The notes beneath the pieces are model-generated. The model was not told where the DNA came from and ran no database searches. It saw nothing but the letters and a program-made list of their open reading frames with translations. 64,000 nt of DNA from the NCBI RefSeq assembly GCF_001971705.1, contig NZ_CP019327.1, positions 1,550,001-1,614,000 on the forward strand, in the 5' to 3' direction. Below are positions 29,538 to 38,869 of the stretch, piece by piece. The stretch is from Natronorubrum daqingense. Lineage in GTDB: Archaea; Halobacteriota; Halobacteria; Halobacteriales; Natrialbaceae. A program made the position numbers and the translations under genes. How positions within the stretch are numbered: position 1 is the first letter of the stretch; each line of letters begins with the position of its first letter.

Positions 29538-29612
29538 GCTCCGTTGGTGTAGTCCGGCCAATCATATTGCCCTCTCACGGCAATGACTAGGGTTCGAATC
29601 CCTGACGGAGCA
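29538..29612 (+). tRNA. tRNA-Glu (CUC)
   Basis: 75 nt. The acceptor stem GCTCCGT/ACGGAGC has 7 pairs and discriminator A at 29612. The anticodon stem TTGCC/GGCAA (29567-29571/29579-29583) encloses loop CTCTCAC with anticodon CTC at 29574-29576. The T arm AGGG-TTCGAAT-CCCT is canonical. CCA is not encoded. No intron is visible. Confidence 0.95.
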
Positions 29613-29843
29613 TTTTCTGTAAACGACGAGTGAGCGGCGAAGGCGACCAAAGATTCGAAGAAGAACGGTCACTGCCTGCGAACAACGTGAGCGAATAGGG
29701 CTGTCTTCGCGTGAGTACAATCCGTGATAGAGCGTTCCCCCTCACCGTTACCCCGTAGTTTTGACCCTGAATTACAGACAAACGTATGTTTATAACCAAT
29801 CAGAATTGCCTCTCTTGTGTAGCATCCCGCAACGTTGTTGTGG

Positions 29844-32714
29844 TCAGATTTTAGTGACCGCTTCGAGGTCTGTCTTCGATAACGGATCAACCTCGACTTG
29901 AGCGTTGTCGGCCGTGTAGAAGATCGATGCAGTCACCGAGTAATCGCTGAACCACTCGGTAAGTACGTGATAGTAGACGCTAAGTTGAATCCGATACTCC
30001 GAGTCGGCGTTACGGGTGAGATCCGTTTTGAAGTCGATGATCTCGGCGGTGTCGTCGGTCAAGTGAACCAAGTCGATCACCCCCGAAAGTGTGACCCGTC
30101 TCCCGTCAATCTCGAGTGGCAGATAGGCCCGCTCCTCGACTAATAACTCACCCGAGAGTCCATCGAGAAAGGCCTTCACGTTCCGTTCGTCGTCGTTGTC
30201 GGGCGTAACGTCCATTCCAAGTGCATAGTCTTCGGCGAACTCGTGTACTCGAGAGCCAAAGTCCATCCCTCGTCCATCGCTTCCGTCCTCGTAGACGCTG
30301 TCGTCCATGAACGAGTGCGGCGAGTAGCTCTCGAATTCCGGTGACGAAGGTACGTCAGTGCGAAACTGTGTATGCGTCGTCTCGTCGACGTTCACTGGCG
30401 AAACGGCTGGCTCGAGTGCCTCGATATCGACTGGTAACTGCTCGAGAAATGTGTTGGGTTCCTCCCCGGCGGCGAACAACAGATGAGTTTCGGCACGAGT
30501 CATCGCGACGTAGAGGAGACGCCGTTCCTCGCCGTATTTGGTCGGCTGACAACACCCCAGAACGTCGGCCCGCCAGTTGTCGTAGACGTGTGGATCGCTG
30601 TGGCTGTCGTCGTAGCACTTTCGTCGACGGAGTCCGGTGGGTTCGGCGTACGTAATGGTGCCGTCGGATCCTCCCGACGGCGGGAATGCTCCGCTGTTCA
30701 TGTTCCCGAGAATAACGATTGGGTGTTCGAGCCCCTTTACGGAGTGAATCGTCTGGACGGTAACTGAATTCGTACCTGCAACGGCCTGTACCTCCTTCGT
30801 GTAGCCGTTCTCGATCCCGTCTTTGATAATTCGAATCAGGTCCCCTCGAGTCATCGTCGTCGAACTGTGAAGCGACTGGACCGTCGTGAGGACGACGTCG
30901 GCCGTTGTCCCGTCGTAGCCGTAGTGATCGAACACACGTCGCGTGACAGCTGCGTGTGTCTCGAAGGCCTCGAGTTCGGACCGGAACGCGGCCATCTCGC
31001 TTGGGTACGCGTCGTGTTCGAGAACGTATTCGATCTCGTCGAGCGTGTACCCAGCACGCTCTAGGACGACCGCCCAACCTCGATCGGCGGCCGGTCCGCC
31101 CACGAGAATACGCAGCCAGGCGAGCAAGAGTTTCGCCTGGTCAGTACGGAAGAGTTCGATCCCACCTTCGTAGGCCATCGGGAATTCGTACGCGTCTGCG
31201 GTCGAGAGCAATTCGCGACCGAAATCGCGGGTTCGAGTGAGGACGGCGATATCGCCGTACGTTGGCGGACGAACTTCGCCGTCTTCTTCGATTGCGTACT
31301 CGTCGTTGCCGACGATTTTTTGGACCTTCGTGAGGATCGCTTCGTGTTCGTCTGCGTGCTGGAACGCCTCGATCTGTGAGTGGTTCTGGTCGGTGTTCGA
31401 GTGAAGGGAGACGACCCGCTCGAGAATCGACTCTCGATCGATCGATTCCCGATTGCTCCCCGGTGTAACGAGTGCGTTCTCGGAAAAATCTAGAATCGAC
31501 TGCGTCGAGCGATAGTTCTGTTCGAGTTCGACTCTCGTGACGGATCCGAGGGAAAACGAGACGCGCTCTGCATCGTCGTTCAACTCGGCAGCGAAGCGCT
31601 CGAGTCGGGCCTCGAATTCGGTGATGTTCTCGACGGCCGCGTATTGGAACGAGTAGATGCTCTGTTTCCAGTCACCGACGACGCAGAAATTGTCCGTCCC
31701 CGAGAGGAGCAAGGCGAGTTTGAACTGGATCTCACTCGAGTCCTGGAACTCGTCGATCATCACGTACTCGAACGCCAGCGACTCGCGGAGATCGGCGTCC
31801 TCACAGCATAACACGAACGCAAACAGCTGGAGGAACGAGAAATTCAAGTAGTTCCGTCCGAGCGCGAACTCGAGATACTCGACGTACACGTCGTGAACGA
31901 ACTCGATGAGGTGGTCCCGATTCTCGGTGAAGACCCGTTCGGCGACGTCTTCGGGAACGGCTTTCGACCCGTACTCACCGCGTAACTCGTCGCGGTCGGG
32001 TGCGTCCGGGAGGTAGCACTTGTTCTTCCCGTATCGGCCGAGATTCGACCGGAGTGTCGACTGTTTGTTCCCGCCGTTTCGCGGCCGATTCACCTCGTCG
32101 AACATATCTTTGAACGCGTCGAAATCACCCTCGAGGGCGTCTCTGGAGTCGCGATACCAGCCGTCAGCAGTCGGAAAGACGCCCTTCGCGGCGAGGTTTG
32201 TGATGAGATCGAGTAACGCCGTCGGGTCGGATAAACACCGAAGGAGATCGTGATGTTCGTCGTGATCGTCGCTGAAGCGGCCAATAAACTCGCGGAAGTA
32301 CTCCCGTTCGATCGTTTCGTTCTCGAGGAGCTGCGTCGACCCGGTGATCGCATCGTCGATCCCGAGATACGACGGTGCGTGAAAACCGTGTTGATCGAGA
32401 ATATCACGACACAGGCTGTGGAAGGTCTGAATGGGAGCGTCGGAAAGTGCCCGCATATCGTACTCACAGCTGGCGACGATCCTGTCTTTCATTTCCGTCG
32501 CCGCGTTTCGGGTGAACGTGAGTAACAGGGTATCGTCGGGCTCGACACCGTCTTTCGTGACGATGTTGGCGTACCGGTGGGTGACCGTGAACGTCTTTCC
32601 GGTCCCTGCGCCGGCGTCGACAAGATACAATCCGTCCGTTCCCTCGATGAGTTCACGCTGGCCCTCGTTGGGTGTTGGTGTTGCAGTCGACGACTCGTCA
32701 GTTGGTGACGTCAT
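29844..32714 (-). CDS. AddA-like UvrD-type helicase with C-terminal RecB nuclease domain
   Basis: 956 residues. Superfamily 1A helicase motifs: Q-type NEGQRELI, Walker A DAGAGTGKTF, motif II IDEFQD, motif III-like GDWKQSIY, motif VI YVAMTRAETHLL. A PD-(D/E)xK nuclease domain closes the protein: FGSRVHEFAED, GVIDLV, IIDFKTD and QLSVYY. This is the AddA/RecB architecture, which processes DNA double-strand ends. It is encoded right after and overlaps by 4 nt its AddB-like partner. There is no RecD-like gene nearby. A role in repair or defence is inferred. Confidence 0.88.
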   Translation of the reverse strand: MTSPTDESSTATPTPNEGQRELIEGTDGLYLVDAGAGTGKTFTVTHRYANIVTKDGVEPDDTLLLTFTRNAATEMKDRIVASCEYDMRALSDAPIQTFHSLCRDILDQHGFHAPSYLGIDDAITGSTQLLENETIEREYFREFIGRFSDDHDEHHDLLRCLSDPTALLDLITNLAAKGVFPTADGWYRDSRDALEGDFDAFKDMFDEVNRPRNGGNKQSTLRSNLGRYGKNKCYLPDAPDRDELRGEYGSKAVPEDVAERVFTENRDHLIEFVHDVYVEYLEFALGRNYLNFSFLQLFAFVLCCEDADLRESLAFEYVMIDEFQDSSEIQFKLALLLSGTDNFCVVGDWKQSIYSFQYAAVENITEFEARLERFAAELNDDAERVSFSLGSVTRVELEQNYRSTQSILDFSENALVTPGSNRESIDRESILERVVSLHSNTDQNHSQIEAFQHADEHEAILTKVQKIVGNDEYAIEEDGEVRPPTYGDIAVLTRTRDFGRELLSTADAYEFPMAYEGGIELFRTDQAKLLLAWLRILVGGPAADRGWAVVLERAGYTLDEIEYVLEHDAYPSEMAAFRSELEAFETHAAVTRRVFDHYGYDGTTADVVLTTVQSLHSSTTMTRGDLIRIIKDGIENGYTKEVQAVAGTNSVTVQTIHSVKGLEHPIVILGNMNSGAFPPSGGSDGTITYAEPTGLRRRKCYDDSHSDPHVYDNWRADVLGCCQPTKYGEERRLLYVAMTRAETHLLFAAGEEPNTFLEQLPVDIEALEPAVSPVNVDETTHTQFRTDVPSSPEFESYSPHSFMDDSVYEDGSDGRGMDFGSRVHEFAEDYALGMDVTPDNDDERNVKAFLDGLSGELLVEERAYLPLEIDGRRVTLSGVIDLVHLTDDTAEIIDFKTDLTRNADSEYRIQLSVYYHVLTEWFSDYSVTASIFYTADNAQVEVDPLSKTDLEAVTKI

Positions 32715-35413
32715 CGTCTCACCTCTGAGTCCGCTACACCGGATGTGGGCGTTTCTTCGGCCTGAACGCTCGAGGAGTCGTCTCGAGGTACTAGGAAGTC
32801 GTCTCGAGTCGATCGGGAATCAGTGAGTAACATATCGCGGTTGTCCACGTAACGGTAGTTCGGTTCGCCGGCGCGGCCATCGATCGGAAAGCGGTCTTCG
32901 CCGCAGCGATAATGGTTTACCTCCTCGAGTTGCCCGTCGACGAAGCGCTCGAAGGCGTCGAGATCTTCCGCGAAGTAGCCCGACTTACGGTAGCCACAGA
33001 GGTGTCTGAACGCTTGCATGCAGCCCTTCTTGACGTACTTGTAGTCGCCGACGTCGTCGACGAGGCGTTCGACCAGCGTCTCGCCGAACGGTGAGTGAGC
33101 CATCTCGTCTGCGTCTCGCGTTCTGGGGACATCGTCGGTGTCGAACACCGTCAAGTACGTCTCGTAGTCGGTCTTCGAGAATGTCTTGTTACAGTCGTTT
33201 GGGGCGTCTTCACGGAGTTCTTCGAAGACCGCCCGGGACTGCACGAACTCGTCGAACGCGGTCGGACGGTAGGTTATCGTCGTCAGGCAGTCCTCGAGCG
33301 TCGCGTCGCCGGTAACGACGTCGTCGAGCGTCTCGAGGAAGTGAACGAACGTGAACTCGAGGGACTCGTCGGGCTGTTGGCGACGCCAGTAGGTGAGGTA
33401 CGAAAGCGCCTGAAAGTTCGGTTTGTCGCTCGGCTTGCCGATCGAACTGGCCTTCGTCACCTGCGACGCGGACTTTCGACTGCCGCTTTTGAAGTCGACG
33501 AGGTGCGTCGGAGACTGCACGAGATCGATCTTCCCCTCGAGTCGAAGGTCGTCGTCTTCGAACCACCGCTCGGTCACCGGCGAGTCGACGTCGCGGTCGA
33601 AGTGCTTCGCGAAGAAATTCTCACCCCAGCTCCTCGAGGGCGCTAGAACCGTCGCGTCGGTCGGCGCGTATTTGTCGAGGTACTTATAGATCGTCTCGAG
33701 ACCGACTCGATACCGAGTGCGCTGCGTCTCGAGGTCGATTCGCCGATGAAACGCACGCGTTTCCTCGATCATGACGTCGGCGACGTCCTCGAGACACGCG
33801 TCGTCGACGAAATCGGGGTGATTGACGGCGAACTCGGCGAAGTCGTGAAAGAGGTTTCCGTCGACGAAGTAGTGTTCGTCCGGGGTCTCGACGAGCCGTC
33901 CGAAGCAGTAGTCTCGCGGCGAGTTCGCATACGTGTTCAGACTCGACTGACTGACCGTCTCGACGCGTTCAGGTTCGATGTCTGCATCCAGTGGCTCCCG
34001 GGCGAATCCGTCATCGATCGGTCGGCCGCTTCGAGCGTGGCGGACCGACTCGAGATCGCTGAACCGTTCGAACTCGGTCTCGAGTAACTCGTCGAAGTAC
34101 AAACACGGCGTAACGGGTGAGCCATCGACCGCATCCTGCACGAGATAGTGCCGGTCGATGCCGCTCTGGAGGAGCGACTGGAAGCCGTCGACGGTTCGCT
34201 CGTACTCCTCGTCGCGGTCGACCCACGGCCGATTCGGCGAGTCCCGGGTCCAGTTCTCGTCGAGTCCAAGATAGAAGACGACCGGCCGATCGACGAACGA
34301 GGCCGATTTTGCGTCTGCCAGCAGAACTCCCTCGTTCTCCCGGTCGATTGGCACCTCGTAGGTCTCGAGATAATACGCGAGTTGATCGATCCTGTCGGTC
34401 GTAATCGGCTCTTCGAGCAGGCTAAGTCTCTCGAGTTCCTCGCGGAACGCCTCGAGTGTTCGTCCCGTTCGAGTCTCGTACGCGTTCAGCGCCGATTCGA
34501 AGGTAAGTGCGTCCGTTCGACCGATGAACTCGCGGAGCCAGTCGATTTCGGGAATGTCGACTTCGAGGTCAGCGAGTCGTTTCTTGTCGTGCTCGATTGG
34601 TACCGTCGCATCGAGACACGAGAGGAGCGGTTTTACGGAGTGAACGCGGGTATCTGAACCGGCTGTCGTACACCGAAGTAACTGGACGAACGCGCGGTGA
34701 TCGCGATCGTCCATGAAGCCGGGGCCGCCATAGTAGGGAACCTCCGCCGTCTCGAGCGCCGACTCGACGAGCGGCGAATACTCGCTGCTCGAGTCGAGCA
34801 CGATACCGATCTCGTCCGCGTTGCCCTGCGTGACGGTGTCGAGGATCGCGTCGACGATCGCTGTCGAAGAGTCGAAGAGTCGAAACGCCGGGAGAGCGAA
34901 CGCGTCCTCAGTGAATCGGTCGATCGAATCGTACTTGTCGGGGAGGATCGACCGCTCGAGGTTCGTCAACTGGCGTTCACCGACGACTGCGACCGACCCG
35001 TCTGCACCGACATCGATATTGTACGTTGCGAGCAGTCCCGAGGACGTCTGCAGCGAACTGATGATGTCGACGATGGTTCTGGTCGCCGGTGTATCGAACG
35101 CGTCGTACTCGAAGATTGCGTCGGCGCGTCCACGGTACTCCCAACACTGGAGCACGTTGCCGACGGTGTAGGCGATTTCCCTCCAACTGAGGTTAGTTTG
35201 GCCGATTACCTCGAGGAACGCGGTCCGATCCTCTGCCGTCTCCCGGCGGCGCGTCGCGAGCCGGCGGGGCGTGATCGCGAACGGCCCGAAATGGGCCCGC
35301 TCGAGGCGACGGTTGAGGGCATCCGCGAGTGGTGAATCGGGAACGATGACGAGTTCGTAGTCGGAGACTTCCTGATACAGCCGATCGATCGATTTCGACT
35401 GCGTAAGTGACAC
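32711..35413 (-). CDS. AddB-like PD-(D/E)xK nuclease subunit
   Basis: 900 residues. The N-terminal two thirds look like a helicase-derived scaffold without a Walker A motif (it starts YELVIVPDSPLADALNRRL). The C-terminal third has the RecB-nuclease signature: GNLFHDFAEF, LEGKIDLV, LVDFKSGSRK and NFQALSY. Four cysteines bracket the nuclease region (DYC, KKGC, RHLC, YRCG), reminiscent of the iron-sulfur cysteines of AddB although with different spacing. It overlaps the AddA-like gene by ATGA. Together they form a two-subunit, two-nuclease complex by analogy with AddAB. Confidence 0.82.
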   Translation of the reverse strand: MSLTQSKSIDRLYQEVSDYELVIVPDSPLADALNRRLERAHFGPFAITPRRLATRRRETAEDRTAFLEVIGQTNLSWREIAYTVGNVLQCWEYRGRADAIFEYDAFDTPATRTIVDIISSLQTSSGLLATYNIDVGADGSVAVVGERQLTNLERSILPDKYDSIDRFTEDAFALPAFRLFDSSTAIVDAILDTVTQGNADEIGIVLDSSSEYSPLVESALETAEVPYYGGPGFMDDRDHRAFVQLLRCTTAGSDTRVHSVKPLLSCLDATVPIEHDKKRLADLEVDIPEIDWLREFIGRTDALTFESALNAYETRTGRTLEAFREELERLSLLEEPITTDRIDQLAYYLETYEVPIDRENEGVLLADAKSASFVDRPVVFYLGLDENWTRDSPNRPWVDRDEEYERTVDGFQSLLQSGIDRHYLVQDAVDGSPVTPCLYFDELLETEFERFSDLESVRHARSGRPIDDGFAREPLDADIEPERVETVSQSSLNTYANSPRDYCFGRLVETPDEHYFVDGNLFHDFAEFAVNHPDFVDDACLEDVADVMIEETRAFHRRIDLETQRTRYRVGLETIYKYLDKYAPTDATVLAPSRSWGENFFAKHFDRDVDSPVTERWFEDDDLRLEGKIDLVQSPTHLVDFKSGSRKSASQVTKASSIGKPSDKPNFQALSYLTYWRRQQPDESLEFTFVHFLETLDDVVTGDATLEDCLTTITYRPTAFDEFVQSRAVFEELREDAPNDCNKTFSKTDYETYLTVFDTDDVPRTRDADEMAHSPFGETLVERLVDDVGDYKYVKKGCMQAFRHLCGYRKSGYFAEDLDAFERFVDGQLEEVNHYRCGEDRFPIDGRAGEPNYRYVDNRDMLLTDSRSTRDDFLVPRDDSSSVQAEETPTSGVADSEVRR

Positions 35414-35451
35414 GATGCATACCGTGTTGGATCACCGGACAATAAGTCTGT

Positions 35452-35553
35452 ATGTCGGCCCCAACGGATAACCATCTCCGCGGATACGTCGGTATTCAGA
35501 CGGGAATTCGGAAGGCAGGCAAACGCGACGGCGTCCTCTTCGAGCGCCGTTAA
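35452..35553 (+). CDS. Possible small ORF, 33 residues
   Basis: MSAPTDNHLRGYVGIQTG continues for 15 more residues to end at TAA 35551-35553. It starts shortly beyond the AddB-like gene's start on the other strand and its end overlaps the convergent zinc-ribbon gene by 4 nt. Codon composition looks coding, but there is no family match or clear promoter. It may be a gene remnant. Confidence 0.25.
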   Translation: MSAPTDNHLRGYVGIQTGIRKAGKRDGVLFERR

Positions 35554-35945: not shown

Positions 35946-36482
35946 ATGACACACGTTCGCGTGTTGAGTGCCGATGAAACGATCGCATCGACGGGCGGTT
36001 CTGGCGGGGCAACGCCGTCGAACGGCGGCGACGACCTCGTCGCTGCCGTTCCTGAACTCGAGGGGGTCGCGGATATCGACGTCGAGTCGGTTTGGGACGA
36101 ACTGAGCTTTCACCTCTCGGTGTCGGATGTCGCCTCGCTCGCCGAATCGGTCGAAGCGGCGGCGACGGACGGTGTCGACGGCGTCGTCGTGACGCACGGC
36201 ACGGAGACGATGGCGGAATCGGCGTACTCTCTCGATCTGATGACGGCCGACGCGCGCTTTCAGGACGGTGCCTGTATCGCATTCGGCGATTTCGTTCGCG
36301 CGGCCAGATAGGTGACGAAGGCTCGAGCGGGTCGTCCGGACGCCTACGCCTCAGCGGCGGGCGGTCCCGTCGCAGAGATCACAGCCGATAGGGTCGGACT
36401 CCGGCGAGAACCCAGGAGCGAGTCGGTGTCGATTCCACGTACCGACATGACGGCTCGAGCGACGTCATTCCCGGCGGAGTAG
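35946..36482 (+). pseudogene. L-asparaginase remnant (internal deletion, nonsense codon, truncated)
   Basis: The first part carries the type I asparaginase N-terminus in damaged form (VLSADETIASTGGSGG in place of the STGGTIAST type) and the intact second motif VVVTHGTETMAESAY. Material expected between that helix and the segment IAFGDFVRAAR is missing. The frame then hits TAG at 36309-36311, but continues in the same frame with VTKARAGRPDAYASAAGGPVAE and REPRSESVSIP, clearly more asparaginase, up to TAG at 36480-36482. The C-terminal domain is absent. Probably a dead gene. Confidence 0.8.
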
Positions 36483-38127: not shown

Positions 38128-38869
38128 GGCACTGTCTAGTTTAGCACCTCCGCTGGCGTCTGTCCGTTGAGTGATTGATGTGGTCGTTGTGTGTTGTAGT
38201 AGTGTACAAACTGTTCAAGCCATTCTCTGACGCTCGCCCGACTGCCCACCCACGAGTTATGGAAGCGGTCAACTCTCATCTTCAAGGTGTGAAACCACTT
38301 TTCGATCAGGTTTCGATCAACGTAGTCGAGCTGACCGCTCAATCCTAATCGAGAGAGGGCAGTCAGATATCCATAGCCATCAGCGAGAAACACGGTATTG
38401 GATAGATCGTGTTTCTCGGTCAACCGATGCAGAAACGCAGCAGCTGGATCGGTGCCTCGACGTCCGAACACTGCGACATCGAGAATTAGTTTTGAGTCCA
38501 AGTCTATTGCAGCGTATACCCAAGACCAGTCTCCGTTAATCCTGACAGCGGTTTCATCAATGGCGACCCGCGACGGCTTCGCCGTCGGCGGGTCTGGAAC
38601 GCTGTCAGCCAGCCGATGTACCCAGTTCCAGATCGCTTGATGAGAGCGTTCCACACCGATCAAGCGAAGAATTGCTTGTGTCTCTCGAAGAGAACAACCG
38701 GTCGCGTGGAGACGGACTGCGAACACCCTGACGGGCGTCGCCGTCCGCTCACGCTCCCAACATTCATCAAATTCCGCCGCGTAGCTCTCGCTGAGCAGGT
38801 CTACGAGCATTGTTCCAAACTAACTCTACGACCTGCTCACTTCTCAAACTGGCCTAACTAGACACTGCC
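38128..38869 (-). mobile_element. Complete IS6-family insertion sequence (742 bp)
   Basis: Terminal inverted repeats GGCACTGTCTAGTTTAG (38128-38144) and, read inward from the right, GGCAGTGTCTAGTTAG (38869-38854) bound a single intact transposase gene. Both ends are flanked by the same 8-bp CGAGAGAC. The perfect duplication and intact transposase indicate a recent insertion. Confidence 0.92.
38136..38810 (-). CDS. IS6-family DDE transposase
   Basis: 224 residues. The catalytic triad is visible as D in VAIDETAV, D in FLADGYGYL and E in NLIEKWFHTLK, followed by the usual NTQRPHQSLNG C-terminus. An N-terminal helical DNA-binding part (LRETQAILRLIGVERSHQA) precedes it. The stop codon TAG lies within the left inverted repeat. 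No frame damage, so probably active. Confidence 0.93.
   Translation of the reverse strand: MLVDLLSESYAAEFDECWERERTATPVRVFAVRLHATGCSLRETQAILRLIGVERSHQAIWNWVHRLADSVPDPPTAKPSRVAIDETAVRINGDWSWVYAAIDLDSKLILDVAVFGRRGTDPAAAFLHRLTEKHDLSNTVFLADGYGYLTALSRLGLSGQLDYVDRNLIEKWFHTLKMRVDRFHNSWVGSRASVREWLEQFVHYYNTQRPHQSLNGQTPAEVLN

Follow-up and report, generated by a model that had tools for sequence, protein, structure and literature searches.

Introduction

In the AddB family, the [4Fe-4S] cysteines around the nuclease (C...CX2CX5C) are present in only a subset of the proteins, and in AdnAB both subunits, AdnA included, retain their motor motifs. Archaeal addAB genes as such have already been reported: Cromie reportedly came upon them, unexpectedly, in 2009, with Walker A and the Fe-S cysteines confined to subsets of AddB. 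For bacterial AddAB, the latch (Chi) is described in the available part of PMC4824097. In Thermus, as far as the accessible part of PMC9751324 goes, mutation of addAB raises the uptake of plasmid and linear DNA up to 1000-fold and also makes the cells more sensitive to DNA damage.

In this work we follow up two adjacent genes in the window, i.e., the whole stretch of 64,000 nucleotides of the Natronorubrum genome that was analysed. One encodes an AddA-like subunit (hereafter A) and the other an AddB-like subunit (B), and both open reading frames lie where a preliminary description had placed them (Table 1).

Results

The gene pair

The coupling claimed for the two genes, with B upstream of A, is present as an ATGA with a gap of -4. 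The adjacency and coupling of AddAB genes are retained well beyond this genome: B precedes A in all 57 loci that carry both genes, and the two overlap in 56 of them (by 4 nt in 34, 8 nt in 21 and 7 nt in one, lengths that depend on the script's choice of start codons), the remaining locus having a 34-nt gap. Given this constant order and these overlaps, the pairing is not a matter of chance. Full-length A and full-length B are also found in an identical set of 33 of the 80 relatives, and no further gene family, as a possible third partner, recurs in more than six of the 57 loci.

Table 1. Coordinates, in the window, of the gene pair, its domains and the segment that holds it
Feature	Position	Strand	Basis
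Gene B, AddB-like subunit	32711..35413	minus	900 aa, GTG start; best Foldseek matches are AddB chains; profile match to canonical haloarchaeal/Thermus AddB
B residues 1-460, helicase-like scaffold without Walker A	34034..35413	minus	AlphaFold2 model, pLDDT 85.7; matches AddB, AdnA, RecC and UvrD
B residues 486-745, PD-(D/E)XK nuclease domain	33179..33958	minus	PF12705, 4.5e-12; catalytic motifs invariant in 48/48
Overlap of B stop and A start (ATGA)	32711..32714	minus	gap -4
Gene A, AddA-like subunit	29844..32714	minus	956 aa; Foldseek ranks 1-4 are AddA
A residues 12-768, SF1A UvrD/PcrA-type motor	30411..32681	minus	PF00580, 4.2e-48; PF13361, 2.5e-27; motif conservation; model range matched to UvrD
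A residues 799-956, C-terminal PD-(D/E)XK nuclease	29847..30320	minus	PF12705, 4.2e-08 at 864-923; key residues kept in 41-43/43
tRNA-Glu(CTC)	29538..29612	plus	near-identity to the closest relative without the pair stops one base past it (29613)
Variable segment with the pair	29614..35551	.	same interval in that relative (G003) holds 23.75 kb of unrelated genes

Subunit A

In one chain, A combines the SF1A helicase motifs and the C-terminal RecB-type nuclease of the AddA-type layout. The Pfam search finds the N- and C-terminal UvrD domains together with the PF12705 nuclease, the Walker A motif reads GAGTGKT (residues 35-41), and in an alignment of 43 relatives helicase motifs I-VI are essentially invariant, the nuclease residues being kept in 41-43 of them. 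Compared with the PDB by Foldseek, the AlphaFold2 model (pLDDT 83.5, pTM 0.71) has AddA at ranks 1-4 (4cej_A, E 1.9e-37), followed by RecB, PcrA and UvrD; in the VIA aligner, UvrD comes top by Z (33.7, over 475 residues) and AddA reaches 28.6 over 801 residues. By sequence, PcrA (NCBIfam, 3.7e-55) is slightly ahead of AddA (3.8e-45) and is also the closest in phmmer, and A stays far below the NCBI cut-offs for AddA (154 bits vs 707.65 for addA_Gpos and 132 vs 860.75 for addA_alphas).

In a tree of 33 rows, which came with long-branch warnings, A forms its own 100/100 clade and groups with UvrD/PcrA (96/89). A second tree, built on the motor core with 33 rows and with UvrD/Rep as root, sets A apart on a deep branch of its own next to AddA, RecB and the canonical haloarchaeal AddA; its supports are weak, and its labels may have been displaced by the re-rooting. 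Neither tree is trusted as a placement, as the position of A differs between the two and the branches are long, and the relationship of A is less clear-cut than the homology of B to AddB.

Subunit B

B shows the AddB-type layout of a motor-less helicase-like fold followed by a C-terminal RecB-type nuclease. Only the PF12705 nuclease is found by Pfam, and there is no Walker A in the sequence. The nuclease is intact, since GxxxH (H523), D630, D640xK642 (D640, K642), Q668 and Y672 are invariant in all 48 aligned relatives; on both points the preliminary description was accurate. The AlphaFold2 model (pLDDT 85.7, pTM 0.69) has AddB at Foldseek ranks 1-5 against the PDB (3u4q_B, E 3.9e-12), then AdnA, RecC and UvrD, and in the VIA aligner AdnA (Z 17.8) and AddB (Z 16.9) are tied, with 670-686 residues aligned.

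Single-sequence searches say much less about B. It has no NCBIfam hit at E<=1, hence does not reach the AddB equivalog cut-offs; against the PDB, sequence alone gave no relatives, just chance hits to kinesin and insecticidal proteins; and the pairwise or single-sequence comparisons with Thermus AddB, E. coli RecC and the canonical haloarchaeal AddB of L194 are not significant. The link becomes visible only with a profile of 11 sequences, i.e., ten canonical haloarchaeal AddB and Thermus AddB, which the profile of B matches at 97.8% (E 8.1e-13) over B residues 197-678, a range that takes in the nuclease as well as the latter half of the scaffold. Two independent lines, the predicted fold and the profile, thus support the homology of B to AddB. 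The AddAB-like architecture with two nucleases, as first proposed, agrees with the predicted folds of A and B and with this profile match, the model of B pointing to AddB before anything else and not to an unrelated fold.

The cysteines of B fared differently. Four of them around the nuclease had been taken as a possible Fe-S site of unusual spacing, and their column counts in 48 relatives, together with the absence of CX2CX5C, rule against this: C503 is a cysteine in four of the 48, C806 in seven and C798 in 30, and C837 is not conserved. Where canonical AddB has its first cysteine (YxxCP), B has Ser498, a position occupied by cysteine in 18 of the 48. None of 60 B sequences checked has the C-terminal CX2CX5C, compared to nine out of nine canonical haloarchaeal AddB; Thermus AddB keeps its four Fe-S cysteines. 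The site of unusual spacing is ruled out by these counts, and, with the noted cysteines unconserved and CX2CX5C missing in 60/60, B is read from its sequence as an Fe-S-free form.

Variant loci

Some loci depart from the usual pair. In G076 (L058, 4945-6759, on G076:C16) and G062 (L280 and L283, on G062:C223 and C180), the gene downstream of a distant B codes for an A homologue (hhalign 99.7%) that has none of the helicase motifs and no C-terminal nuclease. The nuclease motifs of that B are intact. The copies of the two genomes are 33% identical and their frames open, which suggests that the motor-less form is being maintained and is not in decay. Of 392 genomes of the order, 148 gave A-type matches when the degenerate A served as query. 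The second pair of G397, a genome that has another complete pair, combines a full-length B with an A of 829 aa that stops before the nuclease domain (L098, 7948-13019, on G397:C1). A haloarchaeal plasmid cassette of three genes (L195, 3989-8539; L274, 1-4887) is headed by a UvrD helicase, followed by a stand-alone hypothetical or PD-(D/E)XK protein of ~300 aa and by a second SF1 helicase annotated as exonuclease V beta or ATP-dependent helicase.

Distribution and variable segment

Matches to B occur in 36 of the 80 relatives and matches to A in 35, under a threshold stricter for A than for B; beyond the 33 full-length carriers there are remnants, a partial A (G075) and a distant variant (G076). 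In a phylum-wide draw, B is matched in 44 of 392 genomes, all of the same taxonomic order except G081 and G106. Among named genomes, with a search pattern that favours close relatives, all 80 retained loci are haloarchaeal or halophilic-archaeal by title. Matches were found in 34 plasmid records, all haloarchaeal, and there was no match to B in phage records.

The closest relative without the pair (G003) has a flank 96-97% identical to the one here, and the homology that breaks off after the tRNA-Glu resumes at 35552. What lies between measures 5.9 kb with the pair in the window and 23.75 kb with other genes in G003, where the ORF starts of this 24-kb counterpart look, when read by eye, metabolic and stress-related. 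No att-like repeat of the tRNA-Glu end was found around the variable segment. The patchiness (33/80), the 34 plasmid records, the remnants and the segment replaced after tRNA-Glu indicate that the pair is accessory, most likely a horizontally moving haloarchaeal module.

Two other features lie close by. The asparaginase-like gene adjoining the pair (window 35946-36311) is a fragment of 121 aa, its homologous ORF in G003 being open for at least 313 aa. At 38136-38810 there is the DDE transposase of an insertion sequence, with two more identical copies in the main contig of the genome.

The pair had also been presented against a background of archaea using HerA-NurA, which is a misleading contrast here: a NurA-family protein (PF09376) is encoded in the Natronorubrum genome itself (G000:C1:2239706-2240650), in 63 of the 64 good-quality relatives, and in 74 of all 80. 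Replacement of HerA-NurA by the pair is ruled out by this distribution; NurA being nearly universal, the pair is added to it and does not substitute for it. The Haloferax volcanii control genome also matches the NurA family, in disagreement with the available part of PMC7776575, where HerA and NurA are stated to be absent from H. volcanii.

Neighbourhood

On plasmid pHTIA of Halorhabdus tiamatea, one copy of the pair abuts an annotated BREX-5 and a second copy is beside ParA. Using the BREX-5 PglZ of pHTIA as query, PglZ relatives were detected in 11 of the 80 relatives and 13 of the 392 phylum genomes. Thirteen distinct genomes have both PglZ and the pair, and in nine of these (G002, G018, G029, G032, G054, G160, G342, G397 and G437) the two are at most 25 kb apart, the other four being G013, G233, G332 and G409 (on different contigs in G233 and G332). 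Under uniform placement, which ignores the clustering of mobile genes, such linkage has a binomial P of 2.5e-13. Among the relatives, the presence of PglZ is not associated with that of the pair (Fisher p 0.53); six of the 11 with PglZ have a B match, found in 36 of the 80, unlike what a core component of BREX would show, and the majority of pairs have no BREX nearby. The position of the pair relative to BREX varies as well, being at the helicase end in L060, L062 and L070 and at the brxA end in L097 and L109. As this order is not fixed, the pair is associated with defence islands and is not a member of the BREX operon.

The nearest neighbours of the pair match 243 PADLOC families, and control genes taken from antipodal positions on the same contigs match 54; on each side 106 proteins entered the comparison, out of 152 test neighbours and 159 control genes, and what is counted is families, not genes, many of them redundant helicase models. 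The control region of G437 was moved by hand, as its antipode lay beside a second pair. On A itself, only the generic UvrD, GajB and RTasHel are among the 25 PADLOC matches listed, and on B there are weak ones to Cas4 and DruK.

Discussion

The interpretation we favour, at a probability of about 0.62, is that A and B are the two subunits of one Fe-S-free AddAB-like helicase-nuclease, an accessory haloarchaeal module that probably destroys linear foreign DNA and serves repair second. That the two proteins form a complex is something we infer, along with its polarity, activity and role; the division of labour proposed here is modelled on AddAB as laid out in the available part of PMC4824097. A would load at a free duplex DNA end, where its SF1A motor would pull 3'-5' along one strand and its C-terminal nuclease would cut that strand. 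B, with its helicase fold devoid of a motor, would act as scaffold and strand separator and feed the other strand to its own nuclease, presumably working without the [4Fe-4S] cluster found in canonical AddB. The role under selection is probably the destruction of linear foreign DNA, such as virus ends, broken or incoming plasmids and restriction products, with break repair coming second. The accessory spread, the plasmid location and the BREX neighbourhood speak for a role in restricting linear foreign DNA no less than for one in repair.

A horizontally acquired archaeal AddAB that is an ordinary repair enzyme, chiefly resecting chromosomal double-strand breaks for RadA, would have the same matches to AddAB in fold and motifs; bacterial AddAB does such resection (according to the part of PMC4824097 available), and the damage sensitivity of the Thermus mutants (PMC9751324, in the accessible part) goes in the same direction. 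However, it is rather unlikely that repair is the chief task of a pair so patchy (full length in 33/80), plasmid-borne and surrounded by changing neighbours, in organisms where a NurA-family protein is nearly universal without it.

The pair could instead be dedicated to defence against viruses and plasmids, possibly as an optional accessory of BREX that destroys the DNA which BREX has blocked or cut. Its proximity to PglZ in nine of 13 genomes, the pHTIA copy adjoining BREX-5 and the PADLOC families of its neighbours would all fit such a dedication. Still, we hold this to be improbable: the place of the pair relative to BREX differs between loci, most pairs lack BREX, the pair matches just generic helicase/nuclease models of PADLOC, and the family counts are redundant.

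It is also unlikely that A is a UvrD-Cas4-like fusion independently paired with an AddB-type scaffold, its likeness to AddAB being convergent in one subunit, as one might suppose from PcrA being its closest match in NCBIfam and phmmer, from its grouping with UvrD/PcrA in one tree and from the PF12705 fusions of this kind described from mesophilic archaea (in the available part of PMC5704561), since Foldseek places AddA and then RecB above PcrA, and the tree rooted on UvrD/Rep sets A beside AddA, RecB and canonical haloarchaeal AddA, if with weak supports and labels that may shift.

Going further than the favoured reading of an Fe-S-free AddAB-like enzyme, it is conceivable, though doubtful, that A and B stand for a third AddAB-like lineage, free of Fe-S and all but confined to haloarchaea, which moves between plasmids and chromosomal islands and acts in DNA-end restriction after BREX or other blocking systems; in the G076/G062 sub-branch, A would then survive only as a scaffold without motor, next to one nuclease.

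If the favoured reading is correct, haloarchaea would possess a machine of the AddAB type that needs no iron-sulfur cluster, the element held to anchor the AddB nuclease, and that persists as an optional and mobile trait alongside NurA and, presumably, Mre11-Rad50. 'End degradation as defence' would then be separated from 'end resection as repair' within one organism, and part of the barrier to linear DNA and viruses that varies from strain to strain in haloarchaea would be explained. It would also offer a natural Fe-S-free comparison for the mechanism of AddB.

In the literature searched, mostly without subscription papers, we found no earlier description of the A/B pair, nor of the contrast between two families in haloarchaea, the uniform Fe-S loss or the BREX neighbourhood. 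Of the systems described, the UvrD-Cas4-like fusions (PF12705) share the domain layout of A and come from mesophilic archaea; unlike for A, the available part of PMC5704561 describes no AddB-like partner for them, their contexts being type III RM and Dcm/Vsr. Mycobacterial AdnAB (6ppr, 9np6) likewise has two nuclease-bearing subunits, and the model of B is tied by Z between AdnA and AddB, but B lacks the Walker A. The best structural matches are to bacterial AddAB (Bacillus subtilis; 3u4q, 4cej), which has the same SF1A motor-nuclease and motor-less helicase-like nuclease encoded by adjacent genes; B differs in the missing CX2CX5C and in being ~250 residues shorter than the solved AddB chains, and the pair falls far below the NCBI cut-offs for AddA and AddB. 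The short AddAB of Thermus and cyanobacteria (L242, L273) is plasmid-borne too, with the B-A order and an AddB of ~860-890 aa, yet Thermus AddB has the four Fe-S cysteines and shows no significant pairwise similarity to B.

A further related system is the canonical haloarchaeal AddAB ('family 2'), found in 12 of the 80 relatives (L194, 3946-10633; L261-L269) and exemplified by L194, on a plasmid of Halorientalis marina, where genes of Eco57I-type and TIR are near. It is haloarchaeal and plasmid-borne like the pair, with overlapping genes in the B-A order and a homologous B, whereas its proteins are of about 1018 and 1212 aa, match addB_alphas and addA_alphas and have CX2CX5C in all nine cases. 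We read A and B as a separate AddAB-like lineage and do not assign them to the NCBI AddA and AddB families.
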